From: Blastococcus sp. VKM Ac-2987
GTDB lineage: Bacteria; Actinomycetota; Actinomycetes; Mycobacteriales; Geodermatophilaceae
Length of the DNA: 64,000 nt
Assembly (NCBI RefSeq): GCF_026967805.1
Contig: NZ_JAPVBG010000001.1
Location: 62,001-126,000 of the forward strand
Reading direction: 5' to 3'
The notes under the pieces were generated by a model. The model was not told where the DNA came from and ran no database searches. It saw nothing but the letters and a program-made list of their open reading frames with translations. The first letter of the stretch is position 1; every line of letters starts with the position of its first letter. The translations under genes and the position numbers were made by a program. Shown piece after piece: positions 49,572-53,596 of the stretch.

Positions 49572-49588
49572 GACCGCGCGGAGGGGCC

Positions 49589-49633
49589 CCCTCATCCGGC
49601 TCTCACGCCCCGCTCACGCCCGCCGCCCAGACT
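49589..49633 (+). promoter_or_regulatory. Phased-triplet operator and -10 before the APH-like gene
   Basis: Three heptamers CCCTCAT (49589-49595), CTCTCAC (49600-49606) and CGCTCAC (49611-49617) repeat at exactly 11 bp. After a 10-nt gap comes a weak -10, CAGACT (49628-49633), 6 nt before GTG 49640. The same layout occurs before the Asp-tailed gene (53542-53586). This is the arrangement of an OmpR-family activator site next to a poor -10. Confidence 0.65.
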
Positions 49634-49639
49634 GGCGGG

Positions 49640-50914
49640 GTGCACACCGCCGCCCCCGGCCCGGCCCGGGTGCCGTCCGTGTGGCCGCCCGCCCTGCAGC
49701 TCCTCCTCGGCGAGCCGGCCGCGGAGCTCTGGTCCGCCGTGCTCGGACCGCTGTCCGGCCGGCTCCGCAGCCTCACGCCGGCGGCGGTGACGCTGCGCCC
49801 GGACGGCGCGGCGACCGTCCGCCACACCGCCGTCGTCGACTGGGCCGACGGGCGGTCCACGCGGGAACACCTCGCGGCGGCGACCGGGACGGCTATCCCG
49901 CCGGGAGCCACCGTCGTCGAGGGCACGGCCGGGGGCGGACCGCTGCCCGTGGGGGTCTGGCGCTGGCCGCTGGACCCGGCGCTGCCCGGGCTGGCGTGGG
50001 CGACCTCGGCGGCCGGGGTCGCCGGGCGGCTGGGTGCGCTCGGTGTCGACGTCGGCCGCCCGCGGCTGCGGCTGCGCACCTACCGGCCGGGCCGGCGCGC
50101 GGTCGTGGAGGTGACCTCGCCGGCCGGCCGCTGGTTCCTCAAGGTGGTGCAGCCGGCCGCGGTCGCGGACCTGGTGGCCCGGCACGCCGCGCTCGGGGCG
50201 GCGGTCCCGGTGCCGCCCGTGCTGGCGAGCACCGGTGACGGCGTCGTCGTGCTGCCCGGTCTCCCGGGCACGCCGCTGCGGGCGGCGCTGACCGGTGACC
50301 CGGCCGGGCTGCCCGAGCCCGGATCCCTCGACGCCCTGCTCGACCGGCTCCCGGCGGTGCCCGCCCGGGCGCGACGGAGGACCCCGGGCGACCCGCTCCC
50401 CTCGCTGCGGGCGCACGCGGCGGTGCTCGGGACGCTCTGCCCGTCCCTGGTCGCCCGGCTGGACCGGCTCACCGCCGCGGTGGGTGCGGCCGCGGGCGAG
50501 CACCCCGTGGTCCCGGTGCACGGCGACTTCTACGAGGCGCAGTTGCTCGTCGACGCCGGAGCCGTGGTCGGGTTGCTCGACGTGGACACCGCCGGCCCGG
50601 GCGCCCGGATCGACGACTGGGCCACGCTGCTGGGGCACCTGGTGCTGCTCGAGCACCTGGTCGCCCACCCGGCGCCGCTCGCCGCCTACCGGGACCGGGT
50701 GACCGGCCTGCTCTCCGGACGCTGGCCCGAGGGCCAGCTGGCGGCACGGGTGGCCGGGGTGCTCGTGGGGCTGGCCACCGGACCGTTCCGGGTGCAGCAG
50801 CCGGGCTGGGCCGCGGCGACCGAGGCCCGGGTCGCCCTCGCCGAGGAGTGGGCCGGCCCGCCGCGGTCCGCCGCGGCCGCCGGCCGTCGCGGTCAGGCCG
50901 CGGGGAGGCGGTAG
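49640..50914 (+). CDS. APH-like phosphotransferase family protein
   Basis: A 424-residue protein of the protein kinase-like APH/choline kinase fold. LRLRTYRPGRRAVVEVTSPAGRWFLKVVQP holds the ATP-binding Lys, VPVHGDFYEAQLLVDAGAVVGLLDVDTAGPGARIDDWATLLGH the catalytic loop (HGDFY) and metal-binding DVDT. The substrate is not known; resistance is not implied. GTG 49640 is chosen from the -10 box; GTG 49568, overlapping the nitroreductase stop as GTGA, is the alternative. Its last 22 nt overlap the convergent response regulator. Confidence 0.82.
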   Translation: MHTAAPGPARVPSVWPPALQLLLGEPAAELWSAVLGPLSGRLRSLTPAAVTLRPDGAATVRHTAVVDWADGRSTREHLAAATGTAIPPGATVVEGTAGGGPLPVGVWRWPLDPALPGLAWATSAAGVAGRLGALGVDVGRPRLRLRTYRPGRRAVVEVTSPAGRWFLKVVQPAAVADLVARHAALGAAVPVPPVLASTGDGVVVLPGLPGTPLRAALTGDPAGLPEPGSLDALLDRLPAVPARARRRTPGDPLPSLRAHAAVLGTLCPSLVARLDRLTAAVGAAAGEHPVVPVHGDFYEAQLLVDAGAVVGLLDVDTAGPGARIDDWATLLGHLVLLEHLVAHPAPLAAYRDRVTGLLSGRWPEGQLAARVAGVLVGLATGPFRVQQPGWAAATEARVALAEEWAGPPRSAAAAGRRGQAAGRR

Positions 50915-51561
50915 CCCATCCCGCGCACCGTCTCGATGCGGCCGGCGCCGAGCTTCTTGCGGAGGTAGCGCACGTAGACGTCGACGACGTTGGAGCCGGG
51001 GTCGAAGTCGTACCCCCACACGTGGCTGAGCAGCTGTTCGCGCGCCAGCACCTGACCCGGGTGGCGCAGGAAGGTCTCGGTGAGGGCGAACTCCCGCGCG
51101 GAGAGGTCGACGGTGCGCCCGTCCACGCTGGCCCGCCGGGTGCGCAGGTCCAGCGAGAGCCCCCCGACGGTCAGCACGGTGACCTCGCCCTCGCTCTCAC
51201 GGGCGCCGGCCAGCCGCAGGCGCACCCGCGCGAGCAGCTCCTCGAAGCGGAAGGGCTTGGGCATGTAGTCGTCCGCGCCGCCCTCGAGCCCGGCGACGGT
51301 GTCCTGCACGCTGTCCCGCGCGGTCAGGACGATCACCGGGACGGTGCAGCGCTCCGCGCGCAGCGCGCGCAGGACGGCGAACCCGTCCAGCACCGGCAAC
51401 CCGATGTCGAGGACCACGAGGTCGAACTCGCCGCTGCGGGCGCGGTCCAGCGCGGACAGCCCGTCGCCGACGACGGCCGTGACGAAGCCGTTGGCCCGCA
51501 GGCCCTTCTCGACGAACGCCGCGATCCGCGGCTCGTCCTCGGCGATCAGCACCCGGCTCAC
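50893..51561 (-). CDS. OmpR-family response regulator
   Basis: A 222-residue two-component regulator. The receiver has AEDEPR, phospho-acceptor D52 (LVVLDIGLP) and the PKPFRFEELLARV segment with the conserved Lys. The winged helix has VDLSAREFALTETFLRHPGQVLAREQLLSHVWGYDFDPGSNVVDVYVRYLRKKLG. GTG 51561 overlaps the kinase stop (GTGA). It is the predicted binder of the 11-bp-phased heptamers at 49.6 and 53.5 kb. It overlaps the APH-like gene by 22 nt at its 3' end. Confidence 0.95.
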   Translation of the reverse strand: MSRVLIAEDEPRIAAFVEKGLRANGFVTAVVGDGLSALDRARSGEFDLVVLDIGLPVLDGFAVLRALRAERCTVPVIVLTARDSVQDTVAGLEGGADDYMPKPFRFEELLARVRLRLAGARESEGEVTVLTVGGLSLDLRTRRASVDGRTVDLSAREFALTETFLRHPGQVLAREQLLSHVWGYDFDPGSNVVDVYVRYLRKKLGAGRIETVRGMGYRLPAA

Positions 51562-53141
51562 CGGGGTCCTCCCTCGGTCGGTGCGGACGGGACGCCGGCT
51601 CCCAGGGGCGGCGTCGCGAGCGAGTCGTCGACGGTGCCACCGGTACCGGCGGGCAGGTCGGCCGGCCCGGCGTCGCGCGGCGGCGCCGGGCGGGCGGGCA
51701 GGACGAGGGTGAAGGTGGCGCCCTCACCCGGACGGCTGTGCAGCTCGACGAAGCCGCCGTGGGCCGCCGCGATCGCCTGGACGATGGACAGGCCGAGACC
51801 CGCACCGTCGCTGCGCCGGGCACCGGAGCTCCCCCGGGCGAACCGCTCGAAGACCCGCTGCTGGTCGGCGAGCGGCACCCCCGGTCCGGTGTCGTCCACC
51901 CAGACCAGCAGTTGGTCGCCGCTGAGCCGGCTGCCCAGCACGATGCGGTCCCCGGGCTCGGTGTGCTGGACGGCGTTGTCGGCCAGGGCGACGACGGCCT
52001 GGGTGAGCCGCTGCGGGTCCAGCAGCAGGTCGGTGCGGGCGACGGCGCCGAGCTGCCACTCCCGGTCGCCGAGCCGCTGCACCTTGCCGAACACCTCGGT
52101 GGTCAGCTCCGCGACGTCGGCCGGCTGCACGCGGACGAACTCCGGCTGCTCGGCGCGGGCGAGCAGCAGGAGCTCGGACACCATGCGGTTCATCCGGTCC
52201 AGCTCGTCGTCGACCAGGGCGACGGTCTGGCGGACGTCGTCGGGATCGGCCGGGTCGAGCACCTCGAGGTGGCCGCGGACGATGGTGATCGGGGTGCGCA
52301 GCTCGTGGCCGGCGTCGTCGAGGAACCGGCGCTGGGCGGCGACGCCCCCCTCCACCCGGTCGAGCATCGCGTTGACCGCGACCGCCAGCTCGGCGAGCTC
52401 GTCGGCCGGCCGACCCTCCACCGGGATGCGGCCGGAGAGGTCGGTCTCGGTGATGCCCTGCGCGGTGGTCGCGACCGCGCGCACCGGGGCCAGGACGCGA
52501 CCGGCGACGACCCACGCCCCGGCGGCGGCCAGCAGCACGGTGAGCGCGCCGACGCCCAGCATCAGCTGGGCGGTGTCGTCGGCGGCCTGCCGTTCCTGGT
52601 CGGCGAAGTAGGCGACGACGGCCACCCCGCGGGCGGGGTCGCCCTCCAGCGTCACCGGCACGGCGAGGTAGCGGACCTCCCCCGCCCCGCTGTCGTAGCG
52701 GCCGGCCGTGGGCTCCGCGACGGAGCCGACCAGCTCGGTGAAGGCGGCGTCCTCGCTCAGCAGCACCGGCGCCTCGATGCGGCTCTGGAAGCGGTACCGG
52801 CCGTCGACGTAGCCGAGGAACTTCTCGTTGGGCCGGGCGAGGTTGTAGGTGATCACGGTCTGCAGGACGTCGCCGACCGTGCCGAACGGCTCCCCGGTCT
52901 CCGGGTCGTTGCCCGAGGCGACGATCTGGGAGAACTCCGTGACCTCCGCCGCCAGCGCGACGTCCATCCGCTGGTCGGTCTCCCGGATGAGCAGCCGCCA
53001 GGTGACCAGCGTGACCAGCGCCAGGGCGAGGAGCACCAGGAGGAGGACCCAGCCGATGATGCGGGTCCGGGCGGATCGGGGCACGAGGCGGCGCCGGATG
53101 CGGTCGGGCCACCCGGTCGTCGTGCGCGGTTCGTCGCTCAC
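51558..53141 (-). CDS. Two-component sensor histidine kinase
   Basis: A 527-residue membrane kinase. TM1 is about residues 28-50, an extracytoplasmic sensor domain of about 140 residues follows (TDQRMDVALAAEVTEFSQIVASGNDPETGEPFG), TM2 about 193-214, then HAMP, HisKA with DAGHELRTPITIVRGHLEVL, N box ALADNAVQH, G1 DTGPGVP and G2 GAGLGLSIV. A Pro/Gly-rich cytoplasmic tail of about 45 residues ends the protein. GTG 53141 follows the Asp-tailed gene by 3 nt. Signal unknown. Confidence 0.95.
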   Translation of the reverse strand: MSDEPRTTTGWPDRIRRRLVPRSARTRIIGWVLLLVLLALALVTLVTWRLLIRETDQRMDVALAAEVTEFSQIVASGNDPETGEPFGTVGDVLQTVITYNLARPNEKFLGYVDGRYRFQSRIEAPVLLSEDAAFTELVGSVAEPTAGRYDSGAGEVRYLAVPVTLEGDPARGVAVVAYFADQERQAADDTAQLMLGVGALTVLLAAAGAWVVAGRVLAPVRAVATTAQGITETDLSGRIPVEGRPADELAELAVAVNAMLDRVEGGVAAQRRFLDDAGHELRTPITIVRGHLEVLDPADPDDVRQTVALVDDELDRMNRMVSELLLLARAEQPEFVRVQPADVAELTTEVFGKVQRLGDREWQLGAVARTDLLLDPQRLTQAVVALADNAVQHTEPGDRIVLGSRLSGDQLLVWVDDTGPGVPLADQQRVFERFARGSSGARRSDGAGLGLSIVQAIAAAHGGFVELHSRPGEGATFTLVLPARPAPPRDAGPADLPAGTGGTVDDSLATPPLGAGVPSAPTEGGPR

Positions 53142-53144
53142 CGG

Positions 53145-53534
53145 TCAGTCGTCGTCGTCATCGTCGTCGTCGTCATCATCGTCGGGGCCGTCGTCATCGT
53201 CGTCGTCGGGCAGGGGCGGCGGCGGGACGACGTCGGGAGCCGGTGCGGGCGCCGGCGGCGGACCGCCCGTGCCGCCGGGCGCCGGCGCTCCCGGATCAGC
53301 CGGGACCTCCGGGGCCGGCACGCCGGGCGCCGGCACGTCGGTCGGGGACGGCACGTCCGTGGGCGCCGGCCCATCGTCCGGAGCCGGCACGTCGGTCGGG
53401 GCCGGCACGTCGATGGGTGCCGGCAAGGGGCGATCCCCCGCGCCTGCCGAGCTCAGCAGCGCCCACGCCACGCCGCCGACGAGCAGGACGGCGGCCAGGC
53501 CGGCCAGCACGGCGAACACGGGACGAGGGCGCAC
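53145..53534 (-). CDS. Secreted/anchored Pro-rich protein with poly-Asp tail
   Basis: Not a known family. The 129-residue product has an N-terminal membrane segment (VFAVLAGLAAVLLVGGVAWALLS), then a Pro-rich stalk of APTDVPAP/SPTDVPAP repeats, a Gly/Pro linker, and a tail of six Asp, Gly-Pro, and twelve Asp. The tail should bind divalent cations or basic ligands outside the cell. GTG 53534 is chosen: GGAGG lies 9 nt upstream; a longer frame to 53579 would put the start inside the operator. It is first of a probable operon with the kinase (3 nt apart) and response regulator. Confidence 0.7.
   Translation of the reverse strand: MRPRPVFAVLAGLAAVLLVGGVAWALLSSAGAGDRPLPAPIDVPAPTDVPAPDDGPAPTDVPSPTDVPAPGVPAPEVPADPGAPAPGGTGGPPPAPAPAPDVVPPPPLPDDDDDDGPDDDDDDDDDDDD
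53148..53207. repeat. Trinucleotide repeat encoding the Asp tail
   Basis: GTC/ATC triplets on the plus strand (GAC/GAT on the coding strand) make up 12 and 6 consecutive Asp codons around a Gly-Pro pair. Both codons are mixed, so slippage would be limited, but length variation between strains is plausible. Confidence 0.85.
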
Positions 53535-53541
53535 GGCGGTC

Positions 53542-53586
53542 AGCCTCCGCCCCGGCGGTGACCTGCCGGTGAGAGGCACATGAGAG
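53542..53586 (-). promoter_or_regulatory. Phased-triplet operator and -10 of the Asp-tail/kinase operon
   Basis: On the minus strand CTCTCAT (53580-53586), CTCTCAC (53569-53575) and AGGTCAC (53558-53564) recur at 11-bp steps. A 10-nt gap leads to GAGGCT (53542-53547), a -10-like hexamer 7 nt before GTG 53534. Gap and phase match the site before the APH-like gene. GAGGCT also overlaps the GGAGG ribosome-binding site, so which role applies is open. Confidence 0.6.
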
Positions 53587-53596
53587 CACTCTCATG
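53579..53596. repeat. 18-bp palindrome upstream of the Asp-tail operon
   Basis: CATGAGAG (53579-53586), CA, CTCTCATG (53589-53596): a perfect 8-bp inverted repeat. One arm contains the first CTCTCAT heptamer, so the palindrome gives an added, oppositely oriented CTCTCAT copy, a possible extra regulator site. Confidence 0.7.

Follow-up and report, generated by a model that had tools for sequence, protein, structure and literature searches.

Half-sites in fixed phase form the predicted operator of an OmpR-family regulator at its own operon and at a neighboring APH-like kinase gene in Blastococcus

The CTGTCAT repeats of E. coli PhoB stand 10 nt before the −10 element, in place of a −35. Direct repeats in a 7 + 4 phase like that reported here are described in PMC9019756 for Streptomyces PhoP (11-bp repeats of GTTCACC) and for M. 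tuberculosis PhoP (TCACAGC-n4-TCACAGC), and the present operator differs from such PHO boxes in beginning with a palindrome. The closest described operator is the AgrR box of Cupriavidus metallidurans, whose plan was demonstrated by footprint and mutation; AgrR is a type II activator with positive autoregulation, and inverted and direct parts of its operator both contribute (PMC7380067). The AgrR box, ATKACA-N4-TGTMAT, and the ATGAGA-N4-TCTCAT of our locus are both 6-4-6 inverted repeats, some AgrR operators add an in-phase direct half-site as ours do, and the −35 is absent or poor in both. However, the half-site ATKACA is not matched here, where it reads ATGAGA, and our sites carry two direct half-sites at fixed 11-bp steps together with a poor −10, whereas the AgrR −10 is reasonably good (PMC7380067). 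The AgrR/CopR-type geometry, a 6-4-6 inverted repeat with an in-phase direct half-site near −35, is thus found at this locus, with the inverted arm decayed at one of its sites. Among the open-licence papers listed in capped searches, no title or abstract described this system or operator; systems of this kind are known, and neither the present member nor its operator and varying targets appeared among the papers listed.

The locus lies in the window, a 64,000-nt stretch of the high-GC genome of Blastococcus sp. VKM Ac-2987 (4,613,437 bases, about 4.6 Mb), an actinobacterium of soil and stone in the family Geodermatophilaceae. A minus-strand operon encodes, in order, a small Asp-tailed protein (53145..53534, 129 aa), a sensor histidine kinase (51558..53141, 527 aa, with HAMP, HisKA and HATPase_c domains and membrane spans assigned by eye) and a response regulator (50893..51561, 222 aa); it is flanked by a plus-strand gene for an APH-like small-molecule kinase (49640..50914, 424 aa, GTG start), whose frame runs over the 3′-end of the regulator gene, and by a minus-strand M28 peptidase gene. 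The list of open reading frames puts the start of the Asp-tail gene at 53579, and the position of the promoter sets it at the GTG at 53534; the translation has a hydrophobic N-terminal stretch, a Pro-rich linker and the C-terminal poly-Asp tail. The sequence-only reading had taken the heptamers to fit an OmpR-family activator, and the receiver (Response_reg, PF00072, 94.3 bits) and winged-helix (Trans_reg_C, PF00486, 91.8 bits) domains of the regulator, both above cut-off, place it in the OmpR/PhoB family. Narrower assignments fell short: the CzcR/SilR/CopR heavy-metal regulator model (TIGR01387) was the best, yet reached 204.1 bits against a cut-off of 279.2, and the PhoB model (TIGR02154) reached 174.6 against 296.2. 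No metal-handling gene was recognized behind the sites that were translated here.

The sequence-only reading had described three direct heptamers spaced at 11 bp, followed after 10 nt by a −10-like hexamer lacking its first T and then by a nearby GTG start, both before the APH-like gene and before the operon, and this shared architecture is exact to the base. At the APH-like gene (site A, plus strand, 49580..49617) the heptamers are CCCTCAT (49589–95), CTCTCAC (49600–06) and CGCTCAC (49611–17), each 4 nt from the next, and the hexamer CAGACT (49628..49633) lies 10 nt past the third of them and 6 nt before the GTG at 49640. At the operon (site B, minus strand, 53558..53595) they are CTCTCAT (53586–80), CTCTCAC (53575–69) and AGGTCAC (53564–58), again with 4-nt spacers, and GAGGCT (53542..53547) follows after 10 nt, with 7 nt to the GTG at 53534. 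What that reading overlooked is a fourth, inverted half-site, ATGAGAG (53595–53589), which stands just upstream of the first heptamer of site B and forms with it a palindrome with a 2-bp center. The direct triplet is real, but the operator has four half-sites; site B is complete, and at site A the inverted arm, at 49580–49586, has decayed.

The spacing match had been called improbable by chance, which the genome bears out. The pattern CTCAYN6CTCACN6STCAC occurs twice in all 4,613,437 bases, once at each window site, whereas the pattern read backwards, used as a control, has no match in the whole genome. A matrix built from 49 operon and acidic-gene promoter sites (the acidic gene, found in relatives, is treated below), all of them from relatives save the window's own operon site, scored the DNA upstream of the window's APH-like gene above 300 of 300 dinucleotide shuffles. 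With the inverted arm included, the pattern ATGAGN6CTCATSN5CTCAY is present in 35 of the 112 family genomes, and its control, sought on both strands, in 0 of 112; an assumed GC content of 74% would by itself give about 0.08 matches over all 112 genomes.

The full operator recurs at three promoters of the locus when the DNA upstream of orthologous genes is compared. Aligned promoters of relatives read ATGAGAG-n2-CTCTCAT, CTCTCAY and NNSTCAY in 11-bp steps, then 10 nt and a hexamer of the form ANNNT (its second to sixth bases), with half-sites almost invariant and spacers variable, and the inverted arm rules out the triplet alone as the whole operator. This site set was confined to operons whose regulator was more than 80% identical and to APH genes with a match above 150 bits, and 17 loci that were distant, broken or held other genes were omitted. 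Among the operon promoters, 26 of 27 score at least 20 of 26, the 27th (L137) having its upstream part on a separate contig; L062, where the contig ends, provides no operon site, and the later matrix and −10 step dropped the operon site of L137 and the acidic-gene sites of WIN and L118. Before APH genes the operator is kept in most relatives, though the inverted arm is absent in L057, L059, L060 and L061 as well as decayed in the window. Loss of the box while the genes are kept is not general, since 23 of the 25 APH genes that sit beside a regulator keep a strong one and beat all 300 shuffles, the exceptions being L057 (reached by 1 shuffle) and L059 (by 18). Short heptamers in low-complexity flanks might let two GC-rich leaderless starts match by coincidence, but conservation in relatives and the reversed-control and shuffle results contradict this, and we regard it as barely conceivable. 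In several loci (L052:1456, L054:4697 and others) the stop codon of the upstream gene, a nitroreductase or APH gene, falls within the inverted arm of the operator that follows.

The operator and the hexamer are held in strict register. The 10-nt gap to a −10 with A at its second and T at its sixth position is found at 24 of 26 operon sites, 22 of 23 acidic-gene sites and 21 of 21 APH sites (67 of 70 overall), and moving the gap by one to three bases leaves 0 to 2 matches. The APH count used 21 of 25 sites, the weak ones (L057, L059, L060 and L061) being left out; in L059–L061 inspection by eye shows TAGCGT or CAACGT after a 10-nt gap in a different register. The first base of the hexamer, read as other than T at both window sites in the original observation, is T at none of the 70 sites, and the locus offers a clean example of a defective −10 held in step with a putative activator site. 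From hexamer to start codon the distance is 6 nt for 23 of 24 APH genes and 6–7 nt for 25 of 26 operons, counting genes whose start was located (all but L061 and L137). In the acidic gene the start codon lies about 35 nt further downstream than in the APH and operon genes and yet the 10-nt gap is kept, which ties the spacing to the −10 and the promoter rather than to the start codon. The start geometry of the APH and operon genes fits what is expected of leaderless transcripts, and the APH-like gene is probably leaderless; in M. tuberculosis, about a quarter of the genes with a mapped start are leaderless (PMC3898074).

Which protein reads these sites can be approached through the relatives, which supply natural cases of loss. 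The exact operator is present in 31 of the 36 family genomes with an orthologue of the regulator as against 4 of the 76 without one (Fisher p 3.7e-18 over 112 related genomes that are not independent, uncorrected for kinship); one genome (G015, L062) whose regulator lacks its first 65 residues was counted as having it. The five genomes with the regulator and no exact match (G081, G086, G091, G096 and G098) include three with inexact operon boxes of 21 to 24 of 26 (L117 in G081, L229 in G091, L231 in G098); in G086 (L228) the operon box reaches only 16 of 26, with 21 of 26 where the APH gene is missing, and G096 (L230) has no box of at least 17 and no kinase gene matched at the locus, together with a second, related system (L232) that has a box of 24. 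Four genomes have the operator and no regulator: in G060, G075 and G082 it fronts APH remnants (found by tblastn in G075 and by eye in the translations of the other two), and these sites look like deletion scars of the locus, while the match in G063 looks unrelated. In L127, L128 and L135 the system is absent, and one or both flanking operators are kept with APH remnants, as after deletion of a block. Conversely, APH genes occur without a regulator orthologue in five genomes (G010, G011, G022, G023 and G074), and the upstream DNA of four of these scores like shuffles, whereas G074 (L115) retains a decayed yet recognizable box. A 76% complete genome (G102) with an APH gene, scored as regulator-negative in the table, was excluded from these five, as a contig edge bears the last residues of the regulator.

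The proposed link between the regulator and the sites is thus borne out to the extent that the exact box follows the regulator and regulator-free APH genes lack an intact one. A paralogous OmpR-family regulator might nevertheless read the sites, the operon linkage being incidental: 39 places in the window's genome match the regulator, and members of the family often use directly repeated half-sites of this sort, as in the 11-bp GTTCACC repeats of Streptomyces PhoP (PMC9019756). Yet the box tracks this regulator across the 112 genomes, although weaker matches, the paralogues, are found in 60 of 60 relatives searched, and a 20-letter form of the operator with up to 3 mismatches matches only three places in the window's genome, site A falling outside these because its inverted arm has decayed. 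We consider this alternative very improbable.

We think it highly probable, reading from sequence, that the response regulator encoded between the two sites uses both as its operators, acting in positive autoregulation and class II activation. A regulator site at −35 beside weak promoter elements agrees, as a sequence pattern, with class II promoters, and class II activation is the best reading because an OmpR-type regulator would cover the −35 position by a defective −10, with autoregulation. The phosphorylated regulator would line up on the half-sites, replace the missing −35 contact and recruit RNA polymerase to a −10 too weak alone; it would thereby activate its own operon, with the Asp-tail protein, the sensor kinase and the regulator, along with the APH-like kinase gene. 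In this way, a repeat spotted by eye becomes a testable regulon, with base-level predictions of its operator, regulator, promoters and targets.

It is also possible, if unlikely, that the encoded regulator binds these sites and represses, or works both ways through negative autoregulation or a class switch on phosphorylation. The sites overlap the −35 position, where a bound regulator could repress, and MtrA, CzcR and PhoP act both ways according to the AgrR paper (PMC7380067). However, a −10 whose first base is never T across the 70 sites argues against repression, as does the better hexamer, TAGCGT with its first T, of two regulator-free APH genes (L064 and L065), which would be expected if an activator compensates. 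That second argument involves a small number of genes and is limited in that the regulator-free L115 has CATCGT and TAGCGT is also found in L059 and L060, where the regulator is present and the operators lack the inverted arm.

The predicted structure of the APH-like protein (mean pLDDT 91) resembles macrolide and aminoglycoside phosphotransferases and maltokinase, a profile search found an APH chain at 9.6e-6, and Lys168, His294-Gly-Asp, Gln301, Asp314 and Asp316 show no variation across 26 sequences, so that the APH/choline-kinase fold and the catalytic residues are both recognizable. Fold and motifs (HGD, DxD, Lys) are common to all of these proteins, but identity is 15–22% among the matches listed, the APH-like protein has an extra N-terminal part and it carries Gln after HGD, where APH enzymes carry Asn. 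The model suggests a kinase of drug-resistance fold, for which we do not claim drug resistance; this uncharacterized kinase gains a regulatory context that points to the cell envelope. Searched against Pfam up to an E of 10, it found no match, nor did the Asp-tail protein and the acidic repeat protein.

The gene for that protein, which is small and secreted, stands in relatives between those for the APH-like kinase and the regulator; it too is preceded by the operator, and the regulator would activate it as well. The protein has an N-terminus like RPATWKIVTFGTALTGLG followed by SPD/TPDD repeats. At E ≤ 1e-8 the gene was detected in 24 genomes, which are all the genomes with both regulator and APH gene except the window's own, and in 31 of 112 at E ≤ 0.01; the window's genome has 0 matches. 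The family was seen at L051–L062, L114 and L116–L126. The stimulus may, with low confidence, be placed at the envelope, as a metal or other cation or a cationic agent, because the secreted partners are acidic.

The sequence-only reading had expected a self-contained regulon that includes the APH-like kinase. The APH promoter does have the operator, but a regulon of two self-contained promoters had to be given up in view of the acidic-gene operator in relatives and of a third strong site in the window's own genome, which makes self-containment improbable. This third site, on another contig (C6:330615; L129:5616), has 1 mismatch in 20, with AACGGT 10 nt downstream, and fronts a cluster of glycosyltransferases, an ABC exporter and an APH-family kinase. 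A homologous glycosyltransferase cluster in Microbacterium (L187), 44–49% identical, immediately follows the regulator and this box. Such a correspondence in a distant genus is the strongest argument that the C6 cluster, as far as sequence can tell, probably belongs to the regulon and would also be activated.

Beyond the family, 80 named loci that carry the closest regulators were scanned, and the box reaches at least 19 of 26 in 56 of them as against 1 of 80 in reversed DNA; the 24 loci with no box at this threshold include some that are short, and the half-sites drift in Streptomyces. It precedes Asp-tail genes in Streptomyces, Rhodococcus, Pseudonocardia and Kineosporia, acidic proteins in Pseudonocardia, Rhodococcus and Leifsonia, and, in Streptomyces, a sodium:sulfate symporter or citrate-type transporter adjoining the regulator. 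Here we would tentatively suggest a system for envelope sensing that is widespread in actinobacteria, whose poly-Asp membrane protein, made together with the sensor kinase, may tune that kinase by binding cations or cationic agents, and an operator module may be passed among lineage-specific effectors (the APH-like kinase, acidic secreted proteins, the sulfate/citrate-type permease of Streptomyces and the glycosyltransferase cluster). The locus offers a clean example of effector genes swapped under a single conserved operator. The Streptomyces transporter box (L163–L222) has the drifted form TGAA-n6-TTCAT, CTCAT, CTCAC. Finally, genomes of g4 (Klenkia) and others carry a related, CTCAT-type box upstream of a conserved, acidic-tailed lipoprotein-like gene (L130–L133, L138, L140 and L143), which perhaps marks a second target or a paralogous regulator.
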